Notes under the pieces: generated by a model
Databases searched by the model: none
The model's input: only the letters and a program-made list of their open reading frames with translations
What the model was told of the DNA's origin: nothing
Program-made: the position numbers and the translations under genes
Shown here: positions 2,000 through 31,646 of the stretch, one piece after another
Layout: every line of letters starts with the position of its first letter
Position numbering within the stretch: the stretch's first letter is position 1
NCBI GenBank assembly: GCA_903856805.1
Contig: CAIOCZ010000121.1
Span: 1 to 41,422 of the forward strand
Length of the DNA stretch: 41,422 nt
From: an uncultured cyanobacterium
Lineage (GTDB): Bacteria; Cyanobacteriota; Cyanobacteriia; PCC-6307; Cyanobiaceae
Direction: 5' to 3'

Positions 2000-2362
2000 A
2001 CCACCTGCTGGGTGATTGAGCACCTGCGCGGCCAGGCCGCCTACCGGCAGCAGCAGGCCAAGCGCCTCGCTGATTTGGCCCGCTCTGATGCCAGCCGGGC
2101 CGATGCCCTGGAGGAGTCGCTGATCTTTGTCCTCAACCAGCTGCAGCCGACCGCCACCCGTTTCTCGTTTCCGAATCACGAGCTCAGCAGCCGCAGGTCC
2201 TCCGCCGTCGTGATCGTCGACAAACAGGCCCTCGATTGCGAGTGGGTCACCGTCACCACCACCAGCAAGCCAAATAAGGCCGCCATCAACGAGGCCCTCA
2301 AGGCTGGCCGCCAGATCACCGGCGCCAAGCTCCTCTCCCGCCGCAGCTGGCGCATCCACTGA
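1988..2362 (+). CDS. Siphovirus Gp157-like protein, C-terminal part
   Basis: From an ATG at 1988 the frame encodes 124 residues. It has a charged helical segment (EHLRGQAAYRQQQAKRLADLA), then the strand-rich tail seen in Gp157 proteins, with VIVDKQALDCEWVTV and a conserved ending like EALKAGRQITGAKLLSRRSW. Gp157 proteins are phage or plasmid proteins of unsettled function, found among early and replication genes. The family is usually longer, with an N-terminal acidic helix that is missing here. The frame also continues upstream into the second half of the SLOG domain, so this could be the tail of a SLOG-Gp157 fusion or the product of a deletion joining two neighbouring genes. The start at 1988 is a choice among several possibilities. 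Confidence 0.6.
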   Translation: MSLDTTCWVIEHLRGQAAYRQQQAKRLADLARSDASRADALEESLIFVLNQLQPTATRFSFPNHELSSRRSSAVVIVDKQALDCEWVTVTTTSKPNKAAINEALKAGRQITGAKLLSRRSWRIH

Positions 2363-2459
2363 CGGCCTCAGGCCACCTGTAAGTGGGGTTCCGGTGGTGC
2401 AGCCGGGATCATTCCCCTCTTCACACCATTGCTTCCATCGCCATGACCGTCGCCGCTCC

Positions 2460-2902
2460 TTACGCCAACGGGTCCCGCATCACGAGCCGCCCGCCATTGG
2501 CTCCGCCCACCTTTTCAAACTCGTTGACCGTCATCGTCAAACCGCCAGACGTGATGCTGCTGGCGGTGATGGTGTGTGTTCCATGCCCGATCAGAATCCT
2601 GCCAGTCTTCCCGCCACAACAAACCCCTTCAGGGTGTCATCGCCGGTGCCTGTGTTGATGTTGCCGTTGTTGTAGATGCCGGCGCCATTGGCATCGGCAC
2701 TGGTGCCGGAGACCTTGCCATTACCGGATCCGGTGTCGAGCTTGCCTTCGATCTGAATGCCTACAATGCCGCCACGACCTGTGATCTCGTCGTTGCCGGC
2801 AAGGGCATGGACGGTCTGATTCGAGATGATATGCCATCCGGCTTTGGAGATGGCTGCATCTGTGAAGTTGTCAAAGGAGAATGTCTCAGGATTCCTGAAC
2901 AT
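2460..2902 (-). pseudogene. RTX-like calcium-binding repeat protein fragment, frameshifted
   Basis: The minus frame from 2902 encodes FRNPETFSFDNFTDAAIS, then NQTVHALAGNDEITG and NTGTGDDTLKGF, which match the GNDxITG / GxGDDxLKG style of cyanobacterial hemolysin-type repeats. That frame stops at 2591. The expected continuation (GHGTHTITASSITSGG, then a VNEFEKVGGANGG segment) lies in another frame and ends at a TAA at 2460-2462, so a frameshift sits near 2600-2625. The open frame extends upstream of the ATG without a natural start and lies 65 bases after the giant gene. It looks like the tail of another large secreted protein, or a detached module of the giant protein, rather than a functional gene. 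Confidence 0.65.
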
Positions 2903-2967
2903 GAGCTTCGATGGGTTGGAATTTTGGGGGTCTGCTGTGTGCGGCCTCAGATGGCAGCTTCTTTCGC

Positions 2968-5900
2968 TCAGAAGATCCCCAGCGAGATCCCGCTGAGGAT
3001 CACGATGTTGTCGTTGAAGTCCCTGTCTCCATGTTCGGAGGCAACGGCGATGTCCTCGATGCCGAGCACGAAGCGCGAACGATCGGAGCCGAGGCGAACC
3101 ATCTGGGTTTCAGCGCCGGGGTTGGCGTCGCTGAAGGAGGAGAAGATGGTGCTGCGGCTGCCGTTTTGTAGGAGGAGAACGCCGTAGCGCTTCTGGGTGT
3201 CGAGGGGCAGCGAGTTGTAGATGGCGGTTTTCCCGAAGGCTGGCAGCTCGGCGGCAGTGAGGAGGAGATCCTCAGCCTCTGAGCGTGCGAGGGCGGCCTG
3301 GAGGTAACCGGGATCGCGAGGGTTGAGGCCGTCGACCATGCCGGTGATGCCATCAACGGAATAGAGGCCGATGTGGTTGTTGAACCCGGCTAGGCGCTGC
3401 ACCTCCAGCGAGGGTGCGACGGGGAGCTTGGCCGGGGCGCTACCGCTGGCCTGCCAGAGCTCAGCGGTGACGCCACCGGCAAAGCGAGCGGTGACCTGGT
3501 TGCCGTTGACGGTGAGCCCGAGGAGAGGGAGATCAATTCCGTCGCGGGTTGCAGTGGGTGTCCAGGTTTGGGTGGTGAGGTTGGGAACGGTGCTGATGGA
3601 ACTGCTGCCGATGGCGCGGCCCTCACTGCCCTGCCAGCCGCTGGTGGGGTTGTTGTTGATGGCGATGGCTGGGTTAATCGAGCCGGCGCTTCCACCGATG
3701 GCATTGGTCAGGAGGGATTGTCTGGTGGCTCCCGCCTGCAGAGCGAAGGTCACCTTGCCGCTGCCACTGTCGGAGCGCCAAGTGGTGAGGGGGGCATCCT
3801 GCAGGAAGCGCACCTGGTTGGTACCCACGGATTCCACGGAGGCGGTGGGGCGGAATTCGGGGCCGAGCAGGGAGACGCTGGGCCGACCAGCAAGGGGATT
3901 GAAATGAAGCCGTAGGCTGGCCTGCACCTGCTGATTTTGCAGGCCATCGGCATCAAGATGCAGGCTTGCATCTGCGCTGCCGAGGGCCGCCAGGTGCTGG
4001 CTGCCCCGGAAGTCGCTGATTGAGATCTGGCGGCTGTTGGATGATGTCAGAACGTTGGAGTCTATGCGGGTGCTGACGCGTAGGTTCAGCTTGCTAAGCT
4101 GATCAGAACTGATCTCGTTGGTGTCGATTCGGAAGCTGAGTGTTCCGTAGTTGACGGAGTGTGGATCGAGTTTGAGTTCCAAGCCGGACACCACTGGCGT
4201 GCGTCCTGTCGCGGCATCTTGAGTGGGTTCGAGTAGAAAATGAACGGCCTTCTGCTTGATGTCAGGGATCTCCTCAACGGCAAGGGAGACGGATGCTGCG
4301 CCCCTCTTGGCCAGCGATTCGGGGTTCAGGGGGATGAGGATGTCTTTGGCAGTTTCGCCCGGCTCGAACACCACCAAGCCAGTGGCCACGGTGAAATCCA
4401 CACCGGCTATTGCCTTAGAATCGTTGCCCTTGGTGATGTAGGTGACCACCTGCCTGGAGTTGGGATCGAGGCGATGAACCTTGAAACGGGCCATGGTGCT
4501 ACCACCGGTGACTGGGTAAGCCTCGAGGGTGAGGTTGTTGCCAAAGGCCATGGTGTTGGGCCGGGGGCTTGGCAGGGACAGCGGAAGTTGCTGTGTCTGT
4601 GCCTGCGGTGTGCTGGCCTGGAGGGTTGGAGTGGCCTGCTGCTCCGTGCTGAAGAGAGAAGCGACCGTTGCCGCTGACGTTGATGTGTCCAGGGTGAGCA
4701 CCTGGGTGTCGAGCCAGGTTGTGGCGGCGGCGCCCTCGGGGTTGAGGAGATAGATCAGTGTTGGGCTGGACTGGTCTGGTGTGGTGGCGGTGCCTGCGGC
4801 ATAGGCATTCCAGAGCGCCCCGCCATAGGTGGTGTCAAAGGCGGGATTGCGTTTGAATTCGCTGCTGAGTACGACCGAATCGAACTTGTCGGGCGTGAGG
4901 AAGAGGATGCGATCTGGGTTGATTGCGTTGACTGCGGCGGCATCAAAGCGGAGGGTGTTGGCGCCGTAGTCGGTTGAGCTGATGAGCTCAATGTCGCGGA
5001 GCTTGGTGCCGGGGAAATATTCAGGGGAGGGCTCATTGAGGCGGAAGTCGTACGACTGCCCGGCCCGGCCCTGAAGCCGCAGAGCATCAAATCCCGATCC
5101 TGCATCGATGCGGATGAAGGCGTTGTCGGCAATCGAGATGGCATCATCACCGGCACCGGTGTAGATCACATCAGCGCCGCCGTTGCTGATCACCTGATCG
5201 GCACCCTGGATGGTGTAGATCACATCCACCAGGGGTGTGCCAACGATCACATCGTCACCGCTAGTGCCCACCTGGGAGGCGATGTTGAGGTAGTCGCCAC
5301 CAAAGAGTGCGTATTGGTTATTGTCGTTTTGTTCAGGATCACTGGGATCCGAGATCAGGATATCCTTGAAGCCATCGCCGTTGATGTCGATGTTGCCATC
5401 GAGGGAGAAGCCGGCGAGGGACGACTGGGTGGGTGGGCTGATTATGGCGCTGAGATCAGTGATATGAAGGGTTCCGCGGGTAGAAGCATCGAAGCCTTTC
5501 AAATTATTGTTGTTCCAGGCGGCCATCAGGCGACCATTGACCAGGAAGGGTTTAACCCCTTCTGTATTGTATTCATCGACCAAATCTGGAGCGCTGATCT
5601 CGGCATCGGTGGGGTCAATGGACCAGCTACCCTTCTCATCGGCAATCGGCCTCAGACTTGTGATGGTATGTTTGGTGATATCCTCAAACCCAGTTGTATC
5701 TTTTTTGGTTTTGTAATATGATGTGATGTAAAGCAGTGACTGATCCGTGGCGAGACCGGTCACCCATGATTCATTCCCTCCGCCAATGGCAATGCCGGTA
5801 TCGGTGCTCACCCACGAGAGGGATTGGTTCAGATTGGCGGCACTGGGGGCGCTGGCTATCTGGGTTAATAATGTAATGTTGCCAGTAGTAGAATATGATC

Positions 5901-26048: not shown

Positions 26049-26063
26049 TGGCTAGGAATTAAC

Positions 26064-26082
26064 AGCCGCTGTGGGTGCGGCT
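26064..26082 (+). terminator. Short inverted repeat after the HTH-like gene
   Basis: AGCCGC (26064-26069) and GCGGCT (26077-26082) form a perfect 6-bp stem with a 7-base loop. There is no T-run right after, so it is a weak terminator candidate or a binding site. Confidence 0.3.
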
Positions 26083-26093
26083 ATCAGGTAACA

Positions 26094-26951
26094 GTGCTAA
26101 TTTTCGGATCAGCGGGCAACCGCCCGATTCGATCCGTCATGGCTCCTCCCCCCAGGCCTCATGTGGCCGGCACTGAAACGCCCGGCTCCGCTGATGCGAC
26201 AAGCATCCCGGCTTCCGAAGCGCTGCCGGCCATCCCGGCCCACGCCACCCCAGAGCAACAGCTCACCCATACCCTGGCCAGCTTCCAGGCCGAGGCGTCC
26301 ACCATCACCGCCGCCGATCTGGCGGAAGTGGTTCACGCAGCCCGCCCCGCGTTCCGCCGCGGGATGTGCTGGTCCGCCCACCTGCGCGAGCAGCAAGGGC
26401 GCTCCAGGCTGCAGGTCACGGTGATGCACGTCGCCGGGGCCGAGCTCTGCAGCGAGTACTGGGCCGATGAGGCCAGCGACCTGGCCGAAACGACCGGCCT
26501 GATGCTGGCGATGCTGCTGGGCATTCCTGTGTCTGCACAAGCTCGGGCTGTACAGCCCAATGCAAATGCAGAAGAGCAGACGACTGAAAAGCCTGATGTG
26601 GATCACCCGCAGCAGGCTTGCCCCGATCAGCAAGCCGACGATCCGTCTCCACAGGATCCAGTCCCCCTGGCTGGCTCCAGGGATGGCGGCACTTCTGCAG
26701 ACGGTGATCCAGCCCTGGCCCCGCTCTCCCCTGAGGAGGTCGGCGAGGTTCACCGCCGCGTGCTCGAGCTGCCCCAGGCCACACGCCGTGAGCTGACCAC
26801 AGCGTTCCGCGAGCACTTCCAGGTGCCGCGCAATGCCCGCTCCATCGGTGATCGCATCACCCAACAGCAGCACAGCGACTTCATCGAGCTCTTCCTCGAG
26901 GAAGCGCAGGGCCAGGAGCAGGCGGCACCTCCTGCGGAACCAGGCCCATGA
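26094..26951 (+). CDS. Unknown phage-type protein with proline/glutamine-rich middle
   Basis: The protein has 285 residues from 26094; an ATG at 26139 is equally plausible. Residues about 60-150 form a compact segment (RRGMCWSAHLREQQGRSRL, VTVMHVAGAELCSEYW, TTGLMLAMLLGIP). Its order faintly recalls the ERF-type single-strand annealing fold, but the similarity is too weak for a call. A low-complexity linker (QACPDQQADDPSPQDPVP) follows, then a helical C-terminal domain (LSPEEVGEVHRRVLELPQ; TTAFREHFQVPRNARSIGDR) that looks like a separate DNA- or protein-binding unit. The stop overlaps the next gene by four bases (ATGA). Position in the island suggests a replication or recombination role, as inference only. 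Confidence 0.6.
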   Translation: MLIFGSAGNRPIRSVMAPPPRPHVAGTETPGSADATSIPASEALPAIPAHATPEQQLTHTLASFQAEASTITAADLAEVVHAARPAFRRGMCWSAHLREQQGRSRLQVTVMHVAGAELCSEYWADEASDLAETTGLMLAMLLGIPVSAQARAVQPNANAEEQTTEKPDVDHPQQACPDQQADDPSPQDPVPLAGSRDGGTSADGDPALAPLSPEEVGEVHRRVLELPQATRRELTTAFREHFQVPRNARSIGDRITQQQHSDFIELFLEEAQGQEQAAPPAEPGP

Positions 26952-28960: not shown

Positions 28961-29493
28961 TCAGAGCTCGCCGTTGAACGCCTGGTGCAGGAGGGACTTC
29001 TTCAGTTCCTCCAGGGCGGCGAGTTTGCGTTCGTAGATGCGGGTGAGGTGTTGGGTTTCTTTCGACAAGGTGTCGAGTTGCTCCACCACAAGATCTTGAT
29101 TTGCCACATTAGGTAACGGGATCTTGACCGATAGAATGTCTCCCTTGCTGATATTTAATTGGAGACCACCTGCGCCTTTGCTTTTGTAGAATTATTTCAC
29201 CGAGGGACTGGTCAGAAAATACCTCAAATATGGAGGACGCACGTCAGATGAGAAGCCCTACATTTTCCCGACTCGTTGGTTCATCAGGAAGTTTATGCCG
29301 CCCAGGTTTCCAAAGATTGTGGGTACGCCTAGAATCTTTGGGTCCCCCGCCATGTCGATCATGGCGATAATCAAATCACCTTCACTCAGCAAAAATAAGG
29401 AATATTCCTTGGCAAAAGAATCAGGAAGGAATCTTTGATTATGCTCTGAATCAAAGTTGCCGCCCGGGCGGATACTACTCATTCGAATGTTAA
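28961..29493 (-). pseudogene. hsdS: Type I restriction specificity subunit (HsdS) remnant
   Basis: Two pieces on the minus strand. The first (29482-29258) has MSSIRPGGNFDSE, LLSEGDLIIAMIDMAGDPK and GVPTIFGNLGGINFLMNQRV, part of an HsdS target-recognition domain. The second (29191-28961), in another frame, has FYKSKGAGGLQLNISKGDI, VKIPLPNVANQDLVVEQLD, and the C-terminal coiled-coil end IYERKLAALEELKKSLLHQ followed by FNGEL. At least one frameshift and one stop separate them. The first piece runs directly into the IS element at 29494, which has removed the N-terminal domain. No HsdR or HsdM is present, so this is debris of a lost restriction system. Confidence 0.8.
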
Positions 29494-29663
29494 GGAACCT
29501 CTGGGCAACGAGCCCTCAAAGAGGATCCAAGCTTGCGATTTGCTCGGAATGAGCAATTTATGGGAGATCTGAGGCTTTGATAGGCCTGATTTCACCTTTA
29601 CGGCAGCCAAAATTAGCTTATTTGGTGGAATTCTTGCCCGCAATGGGCACGCTAATCCTCCGA

Positions 29664-30666
29664 TCACGAATTGCATAGCAACCTGCGACGTTCCATGAAT
29701 AGGTTCGAGAGGGCGGCCAGCACATTCACTTTGCAGCGGTTCTTGATCATTCCCCGCAGACGGGTCTTCTGAAAGCCGAACTGCTGTTTGATCACCCGAA
29801 ACGGATGCTCGACCTTGGCGCGGATATGCGCTTTGGCAGTTTCGACCAGATCATCCAGTCGGCCCTCCGGCGTGTCAGGCAGTACTCGACGCTTCCCTGG
29901 TCGCATGGCAACGCGAAAGCCGATCCCCCGGCCTTGCATCTCTTCTCGCTTCTCAATTCCCTGGTAGCCAGCATCCGCATAGACCACGGTTTCCTCGCCG
30001 TGCAGGAGATCAGCGGCTGGGGTGAGGTCATGCCCATGGGCAGCCGTGGTTTCCACTGAGTGGATGAGGCCGCTTTCGCTATCCACACCGATGTGAACCT
30101 ACCGCTTCGCAGGCCTGCGGCTACATCCCGAAGTACCACTGCTTGCCCTTGCAGGTCTGGTGCATTTCCGGATCCCTCTCCTTCCTCTCGTTCTTAGTGG
30201 AGCTGGGTGCCGCGATCAAGGTGGCATCAATGATCGTGCCCTGCTTCATGGCCATGCCGTTGGCCTTGAGGTGGGCTTTGACCACTTCAAAGATCTGTTT
30301 GCCGAGATTGTGCTTCTCCAGCAGGTGCCGGAACGTGAGAATCGTTGTCTCATCAGGGATCCGATCGCTGATCATGTCGATCCCTGCAAATCGGCGCATC
30401 GTCGGCACCTCGATCAGCGCATCCTCCATCGCTGGATCGCTGAGGTCGTACCACTGCTGCAGCAGATGGATGCGCAGCATGGTCGCGAGCTGATAGGGCG
30501 GACGACCACCCTTGGAGCTGGTCTTGGGATAGTGGGGCTCGATTAGATCAATCAGTGCTTTCCACGGCACAACATTTTCCATTTCGCCCAGAAATCGTTC
30601 TCGCCTGGTGCGCTTTTTGGCAGTGGACTGCTCGTAATCACCAAATCCAAGCTACTTACTGCCCAT
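29664..30666 (-). pseudogene. IS5-like transposase broken by an amber codon and a 22-bp insertion
   Basis: The original ATG is probably at 30666 (MGSK), with a TAG at 30652-30654 where a Gln would fit, followed by LGFGDYEQSTAKKRTRRERF and, from 30582, MENVVPWKALIDLIEPHYP. The first DDE Asp is in GTIIDATLIAAPSS. Near 30121 the frame is broken right after KGKQWYFGM by a 22-bp palindromic insertion (30101-30122). It resumes one frame over as VHIGVDSESGLIHSV, with the second Asp in VVYADAGYQGIEKR and Glu in KVEHPFRVIKQQFG, ending at 29664. Apart from these two lesions the protein is well preserved, so the damage is recent. Confidence 0.85.
30101..30122. repeat. 22-bp palindromic insertion inside the transposase gene
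   Basis: The 22 bases contain the perfect 12-bp palindrome CGCAGGCCTGCG (30108-30119). The block lies exactly where the IS5-like protein should read YFGM-K-VHIGVD and shifts the frame. CTA occurs at both borders (30099-30101 and 30121-30123). It resembles the small dispersed palindromic repeats of cyanobacteria, but no second copy was seen in this window. Confidence 0.7.
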
Positions 30667-30734
30667 GAACCCAGTCCTTACCTGTGATTACACGGGTATT
30701 TTCGCGCGGATGGCTCGGGTTTTCCAGAGCCTCC

Positions 30735-31646
30735 CTAGGGACTGCTGGGAAGTGGATTGTCTGGCTGCTGCCTACCCTGGAGTAATTTTTCGTAGGTTTG
30801 ACGAGCAAAACTGTTGTTCAGTTTGATCGCTCCATGATGGACAGCCAGCAGTCTTCTGTCAAATCTGCTGACCAATTCGGCGACGGTTGCTGGACTGCTC
30901 AGTGGGATCGGTGGCTTGTCCGACGGCACTGAAGCACCAGGCTCCTGGGTGATCAGCAGTTGATTGTTGGCCAGGCTGCTCCTGAATTGAGAAAGCAGCT
31001 CAATTCCCATTTGATGGTCGTCCCAATTGGCCTTGACATGCTCATCAGAACCACCAAGTGTGAGAGAACAAACGGTCAGCACCAATAAAGACAGTGAAGA
31101 GGTGAATACAGCTTGTTCGCAACGTGAAATTTCCCCAACCCCCCTCGGCAAGCGGACCACACCCATGATCACGAGAATAACAGCGGCTCCGGTGGCGACT
31201 GCGCTAAGAGCGCCTAACTGAATTCGGTAATGACGCGCCAGATGGCATTGCCTGCTCAACCTCATTGTCAAACTTGCATTCAATTGGTTCAATATCAGCC
31301 TTTGACCCTTAGATGCTCCTTGCAGTTCTCGAATGAGTTCTTCATTCATTCGATAATTCCAGATCAACATATTGGTCGCATCTCCTCTCTTCAGTATAGT
31401 AAGGGAGTCCAGGTTGGCTGTTTGGTATCCCTTTTGCTCGAGCACCGGACAGAATTGGAGCCTTGCAGCCGTGTAGCTGGTAAACACATACGATGCCACA
31501 TAGATGACCAAGCCCATCAGACCGATGCTGCCTGCCAGGAGTGCCTGGCCCCAACGGGTCAACCTTTGCTTGGGTTCTTCCGGTGCGCCGTCAACAGGCA
31601 CAACTTCTATCAGGCGGGGAATCAGAAGACGGAGGACCTTCTCCAT
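30735..31646 (-). CDS. Unknown membrane protein
   Basis: The protein has 303 residues. Three hydrophobic spans are clear: ALLAGSIGLMGLVIYVASYV (about 36-56), IQLGALSAVATGAAVILVIM (about 145-167) and AVFTSSLSLLVLTVCSLTLG (about 180-200). Between spans one and two is a soluble segment of roughly 90 residues; after span three comes a soluble tail of about 100 residues (LLSQFRSSLANNQLLITQEP, RFDRRLLAVHHGAIKLNNSF). No family was recognised. The TAG stop is formed by the CTAG tetramer at the IS border, so the natural C-terminus may have been lost or altered. The start overlaps the small upstream ORF by 25 bases, suggesting coupled translation. Confidence 0.65.
   Translation of the reverse strand: MEKVLRLLIPRLIEVVPVDGAPEEPKQRLTRWGQALLAGSIGLMGLVIYVASYVFTSYTAARLQFCPVLEQKGYQTANLDSLTILKRGDATNMLIWNYRMNEELIRELQGASKGQRLILNQLNASLTMRLSRQCHLARHYRIQLGALSAVATGAAVILVIMGVVRLPRGVGEISRCEQAVFTSSLSLLVLTVCSLTLGGSDEHVKANWDDHQMGIELLSQFRSSLANNQLLITQEPGASVPSDKPPIPLSSPATVAELVSRFDRRLLAVHHGAIKLNNSFARQTYEKLLQGRQQPDNPLPSSP

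Follow-up and report, generated by a model that had tools for sequence, protein, structure and literature searches.

A 22-nucleotide insert in an IS5-like transposase as a probable member of a mobile double mini-hairpin family of picocyanobacteria

Small dispersed repeats (SDRs) of Nostoc, SDR1-SDR8, were reportedly described by Elhai et al. in 2008, and are said to measure 21-27 nt, to show compensatory changes, to occupy exact insertion sites and to belong to one cyanobacterial subgroup. Mitochondrial double-hairpin elements of fungi and algae consist of two tandem hairpins and are thought to be mobile, and Rickettsia palindromic elements are palindromes that lie inside genes. A passage in PMC4390886 states that SDR5 inserts precisely between nucleotides 3 and 4 of HIP1, and passages in PMC3733652 place GTAG-class REPs in cyanobacteria and inside genes and mention the Rickettsia palindromic elements.

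We examined a 22-bp insert in a stretch of DNA from an uncultured cyanobacterium of the Cyanobiaceae; the whole stretch of 41,422 nt is called the window below. The insert belongs to one of two related families that resemble the Nostoc SDRs in size, compensatory changes, exact insertion sites and restriction to one cyanobacterial subgroup. SDR-like features found here were net lengths of 22 and 24 nt, 26 and 69 matches in 42 genomes, unrelated gene families as hosts, empty sites, and compensatory changes, which were strong for the sister elements and modest for the 22-nt ones. In contrast to the Nostoc SDRs, these elements occur in another lineage (Cyanobium/Synechococcus type), enter a G-AA-R target rather than HIP1, carry tandem GNA mini-hairpins and exchange an A. 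We provisionally file them as a variant of SDR-like elements and not as REPs, setting them beside the SDRs by description and not by sequence. Their two hairpins recall the mitochondrial double-hairpin elements, which are organellar and to which we know of no link. Like the Rickettsia elements they can lie in genes, where the +24 sister family can be in frame, whereas those elements are longer, have other hosts, and differ from the 22-nt family, which shifts the frame. GTAG REPs and REPINs with their RAYT transposases (PMC3733652) are also short hairpin repeats with a GTAG-like start that can lie in genes. A MITE was rejected as a candidate, 22-24 nt leaving no room for IS-type ends and the target A being exchanged, not simply duplicated. 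A literature search, whose reach did not take in the 2008 report on SDRs, returned no description of either family, so that novelty is weakly supported.

The insert and its host transposase

The insert (positions 30101-30122) interrupts an IS5-like transposase on the minus strand, separating an N-terminal part that matches DUF772 (30121-30582) from a C-terminal part that matches DDE_Tnp_1 (29664-30086) and is thrown out of frame through the insert. Judged by eye from the end sequences and match limits, imperfect terminal repeats suggest an approximate IS extent of 29571-30733. The first-pass annotation had described this split, and once the 22 nt are removed the gene aligns with copies of the same IS that are not interrupted (with L023, at 89.5% over 400 nt); such copies, which it had proposed for comparison, do exist and lack the 22 nt. 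It had also pointed to CTA at both borders. This trinucleotide is indeed present on both sides of the insert (plus strand), but it is not a plain target duplication: empty IS copies read CTT where the filled window copy has CTA, an A to T change on the transposase strand. On that strand the window reads ATG-TAGCCGCAGGCCTGCGAAGCGG-TAG, whereas most other IS copies read straight through (FGM-K-VHIG, with ATG AAG or ATG AAA), so that TAG (30099-30101, minus strand) stands in place of the Lys codon AAG or AAA that follows the ATG (30124-30126) in empty copies. The host protein, described as otherwise well preserved, carries a second lesion. Codon 5 of the transposase (30652-30654, minus strand) is TAG where other copies have Gln (MGSK and a stop, against MGSKQ), and because of this early stop the window IS copy is dead a second way. 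Contig C39 of the window's genome (G000) breaks off at 4073 (L018) within a stretch 99% identical to the start of this IS, and that genome may therefore hold more copies of it that were not assembled.

The palindrome CGCAGGCCTGCG (positions 30108-30119), which lies within the insert and had been taken as its defining feature, turned out to be incidental. By chance, 0.67 matches with at most one mismatch are expected in the window, and the palindrome itself is therefore not beyond chance. Its 10-bp core GCAGGCCTGC occurs 18 times in the genome, insert included, and 15 of these sites (again including the insert), read with their flanks, showed by eye no flanks in common. Since only 2 of 37 copies of the element carry the palindrome, and the core sites lack common flanks, we rejected it as the mobile unit; the conserved form is two GNA-loop hairpins. 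The perfect palindrome in the window results from a C-to-T change in stem 2, which sets T opposite G at the second pair, and is an accident, not a family trait.

In the window's 3.0-Mb genome, a 25-mer with up to three mismatches was found once. The genome-wide count suggested by the first-pass annotation thus gave a single copy of the 22-nt element, and dispersal within its own genome was rejected. The sister family was not found in this genome either, and a copy count confined to it would wrongly have dismissed the element. Among 149 genomes, the 22-mer with up to three mismatches matched in 39, many of the three-mismatch matches resembling unrelated coding sequence. With a structural pattern of the 22-nt family, 17 of 42 genus genomes yielded 26 matches and the reversed control one, and the pattern with stems fixed and loops free likewise gave 26 and one. 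Applied to about 85,000 species genomes, a 20-letter pattern picked out 33 stretches, all with cyanobacterial titles, and those named to genus belonged to Cyanobium, Synechococcus or 'Microcystis elabens'; the same pattern gave no matches in the viral contigs searched. The set of 37 copies includes one from another cyanobacterial family (L054) that is probably unrelated. Inserts were hosted by IS5 transposases, Rad52-like genes (PF04098), a TPR protein, DUF4236 and genes of unassigned family, and the loci examined held no nested or neighbouring element pairs at most 400 nt apart. A search of window positions 29400-30900 against Rfam returned no match to any curated family up to E 1.

Rad52-like genes are strikingly multicopy in G040 and other genus genomes; a single genome can have as many as 20 matches if fragments are included. 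In the window itself, a 300-aa open frame at 26049-26951 (plus strand) matches positions 177-257 of the Rad52-like protein, beyond the Rad52 domain.

Two mini-hairpins and a sister family

On the transposase strand the window copy reads TA-GCC-GCA-GGC-CTGC-GAA-GCGG-TA (30100-30123, minus strand; net +22 nt), as traced by its sequence, the pattern matches and the comparison of empty and filled sites. Hairpin 1 (30113-30121) consists of GCC, the loop GCA and GGC, and hairpin 2 (30102-30112) of CTGC, the loop GAA and GCGG, where the family consensus has CCGC/GCGG. The family form is TA-GCC-GNA-GGC-NNNN-GNA-NNNN-TA, two tandem mini-hairpins. A pattern that fixed the stems but not the loops recovered 26 copies, all 26 with GNA as loop 1 and 25 with GNA as loop 2. 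GNA triloops are unusually stable in DNA, as in d(GCGAAGC).

Compensatory stem changes in the 22-nt family are modest. Among 18 distinct sequences (of 19, that of L054 being left out), the second pair of stem 2 was CG in 9, GC in 3, UG in 2, UA in one and unpaired in 3, and the remaining pairs barely varied. The covariation score was 0.103 against 0.033 in shuffles, none of 500 reaching it. Both-sided changes were seen in only 4 of 126 cells, 3 of the 18 sequences break the one variable pair, and the number of pairs with both-sided change was not above that in shuffles for these 18 sequences (386 of 500). Folds of single sequences did not outdo those of shuffles (z from -0.04 to -1.23), and the lowest-energy fold of the window copy is another fold, not the double hairpin, so that folding of this sort proves nothing here.

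A sister family with a net gain of 24 nt, TAGGCGNAGCCTT-CCGCGNAGCGG, was first spotted in two IS copies. With up to two mismatches its pattern was found at 69 places in 26 of 42 genomes and nowhere in the reversed control; in a class-wide draw it matched in 3 of 194 genomes, one of them congeneric and another from the same family, and the match in the third, from elsewhere, does not resemble the element. Compensatory stem changes are strong in this family. When all 69 matches were taken, 32 of the 38 with two mismatches changed both sides of one base pair with pairing kept, where 1.1% would be expected; 31 of these 32 concern the same pair, and many repeat one variant. For 41 of 45 distinct sequences, covariation scored 0.181, compared with 0.047 for shuffles, none of 500 coming as high; the four odd two-mismatch sequences were left out, a choice that favours structure. 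In each family covariation rests mainly on one variable pair.

A net gain of 22 nt shifts the frame, whereas one of 24 need not, and the sister element is in frame in several IS copies. In the IS copies L037 (G038) and L038 (G009), the DDE domain contains a sister-type element that keeps the frame and lies close to the usual YADAGYQG motif, and L038 also has a HRFAEGFAY-like in-frame insert near the N-terminus.

Exchange of an A at the insertion site

For comparison of occupied with unoccupied sites, the element was cut out of each locus and the loci were searched for homologues without the insert. The 22-nt family contributed 21 usable pairs: of 36 copies, 11 had no insert-free homologue among the loci examined, and of the remaining 25 rows four (L127, L106, L132 and L117) were judged not to be true empties. 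The sister family contributed 17 (26 copies, 9 without an insert-free homologue), four of its comparators being only 71-77% alike. All 38 pairs had A in the empty copy and T in the filled copy, several pairs having one comparator in common and so not being independent. In the best pair, filled L124 and empty L191, both Rad52-like, are 98.0% identical over 400 nt, and their junction differs only by the 22 nt and the A to T change, and in the best sister pair (L194/L188; 98.3% over 298 nt) the junction differs by the insert and the same change. The net gain was +22 in the 22-nt family and +24 in the sister family. In these alignments T-hairpin-hairpin-T thus takes the place of one A. For the sister family this one-base rule is incomplete: 7 of its 17 pairs also differ at the position following the exchanged A (A to G), so this family may bring or change one additional base. 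Target sites of the 22-nt family had G before the insertion in 35 of 37 copies and G or A after it in 37 of 37.

The G before the insertion gives the element the appearance of a GTAG-class REP or REPIN, which would be moved by a REP-associated tyrosine (Y1) transposase, since together with the target's G it begins GTAG. That G, however, is the target's own: empty sites already have it, and 7 of 24 sister-type copies have C or A there. The tag is moreover partly paired, the G of TAG pairing in stem 1, which leaves no unpaired tag of the element's own, and the stems are 3 and 4 bp long, against 5-13 bp for GTAG REPs in Table 1 of PMC3733652. Y1 transposases showed no association with the elements across the 42 genomes, either in presence (p = 0.64) or in copy number (p = 0.68). 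A REP-type Y1_Tnp was matched in 6 of the 42 genomes, many of them draft; neither the window's genome nor G030, which carries the heaviest load with 18 counted copies of the two families, gave a match. GTAG REPs do occur in cyanobacteria and inside genes, but we consider this origin improbable.

Probable recurrent insertion and mobility

Four sequence-diverged IS copies, the window's included, and later 7 of 36, proved to be filled at the same site, for which shared ancestry is the simplest first guess. A single entry into the IS family could have been followed by inheritance or gene conversion with no ongoing mobility, and gene conversion between IS or Rad52 copies, which could move the insert without new transposition, is the main alternative to recurrent insertion. 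We masked the element and built a tree from 36 IS copies, leaving out L039, L043, L044, the more distant L046-L051 and some short matches. The 7 filled copies required 6 changes, 4 of which well-supported branches make unavoidable, and were as scattered as shuffled labels (mean 6.6 changes); a single clade of filled copies was rejected (p-AU = 3.6e-67). Since the filled copies do not form one clade, the same nucleotide was probably targeted several times. An empty IS copy offers 19 to 22 GAAR sites over both strands (three copies counted) and all 7 filled copies use the same one; for four gains among about 20 equal sites, chance agreement would be about 1 in 8,000. The Rad52-like genes point the same way, with 4 of 29 rows filled (two, L111 and L194, being the same place), 3 changes and p-AU = 0.017; L193, L195-L199 and the filled L123, L124 and L115 fell below the score limit for this tree, and L122 has a long branch. 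Against a single entry also stand the near flanks of L118 and L138, which by eye follow their own clades, the presence of the same 22-nt family in unrelated genes, and the existence of near-identical empty alleles. We regard a single entry as unlikely, if somewhat less so than a REP origin.

Another possibility is that the insert is a translational bypassing element, skipped by ribosomes so that filled genes stay functional. In the bypass of T4 gene 60, a stop directly follows a codon. In one orientation the insert likewise begins with a stop directly after a codon, in the other the codons before and after it are both TAC, and in several filled genes long open frames persist to either side of it. 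In the ATG-TAG orientation, however, the take-off and landing codons differ, some filled IS copies contain further stops (the window, L118 and L129), as do some empty ones (L041 and L139), and the many uninterrupted copies of Rad52-like genes mean that loss is affordable. Bypassing is the least probable of the explanations weighed here, and we give it very little credence.

Our preferred reading, to which we assign a probability of roughly 0.8, is that the insert is one copy of a dispersed, non-coding, mobile family of double mini-hairpins in Cyanobium/Synechococcus-type picocyanobacteria that spreads in trans as a folded strand. The empty sites, the dispersed family in relatives and the recurrent insertion bear out the first-pass annotation in part: they support a mobile cyanobacterial repeat of very small size, caught at a site that can be defined exactly, but not the palindrome as its hallmark. 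The element carries no gene and shows no sign of benefit to the gene entered. That a structured non-coding unit inserts precisely and repeatedly suggests that its folded strand and a short target are both recognised. Copies would spread in trans as a short folded single strand, of RNA or DNA; a putative enzyme would recognise this strand by its two hairpins and copy the element into a target, usually G-AA-R, consuming one A. In the window IS such an event would account for the frameshift and for the TAG that stands in place of the Lys codon behind FGM.

Y1 transposases and reverse transcriptases were checked as candidates in the 42 genomes, and no mobilising enzyme was found among them. Reverse transcriptases, present in 11 of 42 genomes, were not associated with element presence (p = 0.70). 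Genomes with reverse transcriptases had a higher element copy number (p = 0.0096), but copy number also tracks genome size (rho = 0.58); in the association tests, counts for the 22-nt family merge two pattern searches (27 copies in 18 genomes). At L207 (G030:C63:105500-111000), a sister element at about 3363-3387 lies upstream of a reverse-transcriptase frame (2030-3196, minus strand), about 170 nt from its start, perhaps by coincidence.

To our knowledge, how repeats of about 20 nt move has been an open question since the Nostoc SDRs. The elements described here would rank among the smallest mobile DNA known, and form two related families in freshwater picocyanobacteria, isolates included. 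Almost identical filled and empty alleles are available, the exchange follows a simple rule and the same nucleotide is reused, which together make the mechanism directly testable. More tentatively, and with odds that we place somewhat below even, they could constitute a new class of mobile elements of about 22-24 nt with two GNA triloop mini-hairpins, in which an A is swapped for T-hairpin-hairpin-T at fixed nucleotides by an enzyme other than a known REP-type transposase. If true, this would make them possibly the smallest sequence-specific mobile DNA known, and would imply a new integration chemistry.
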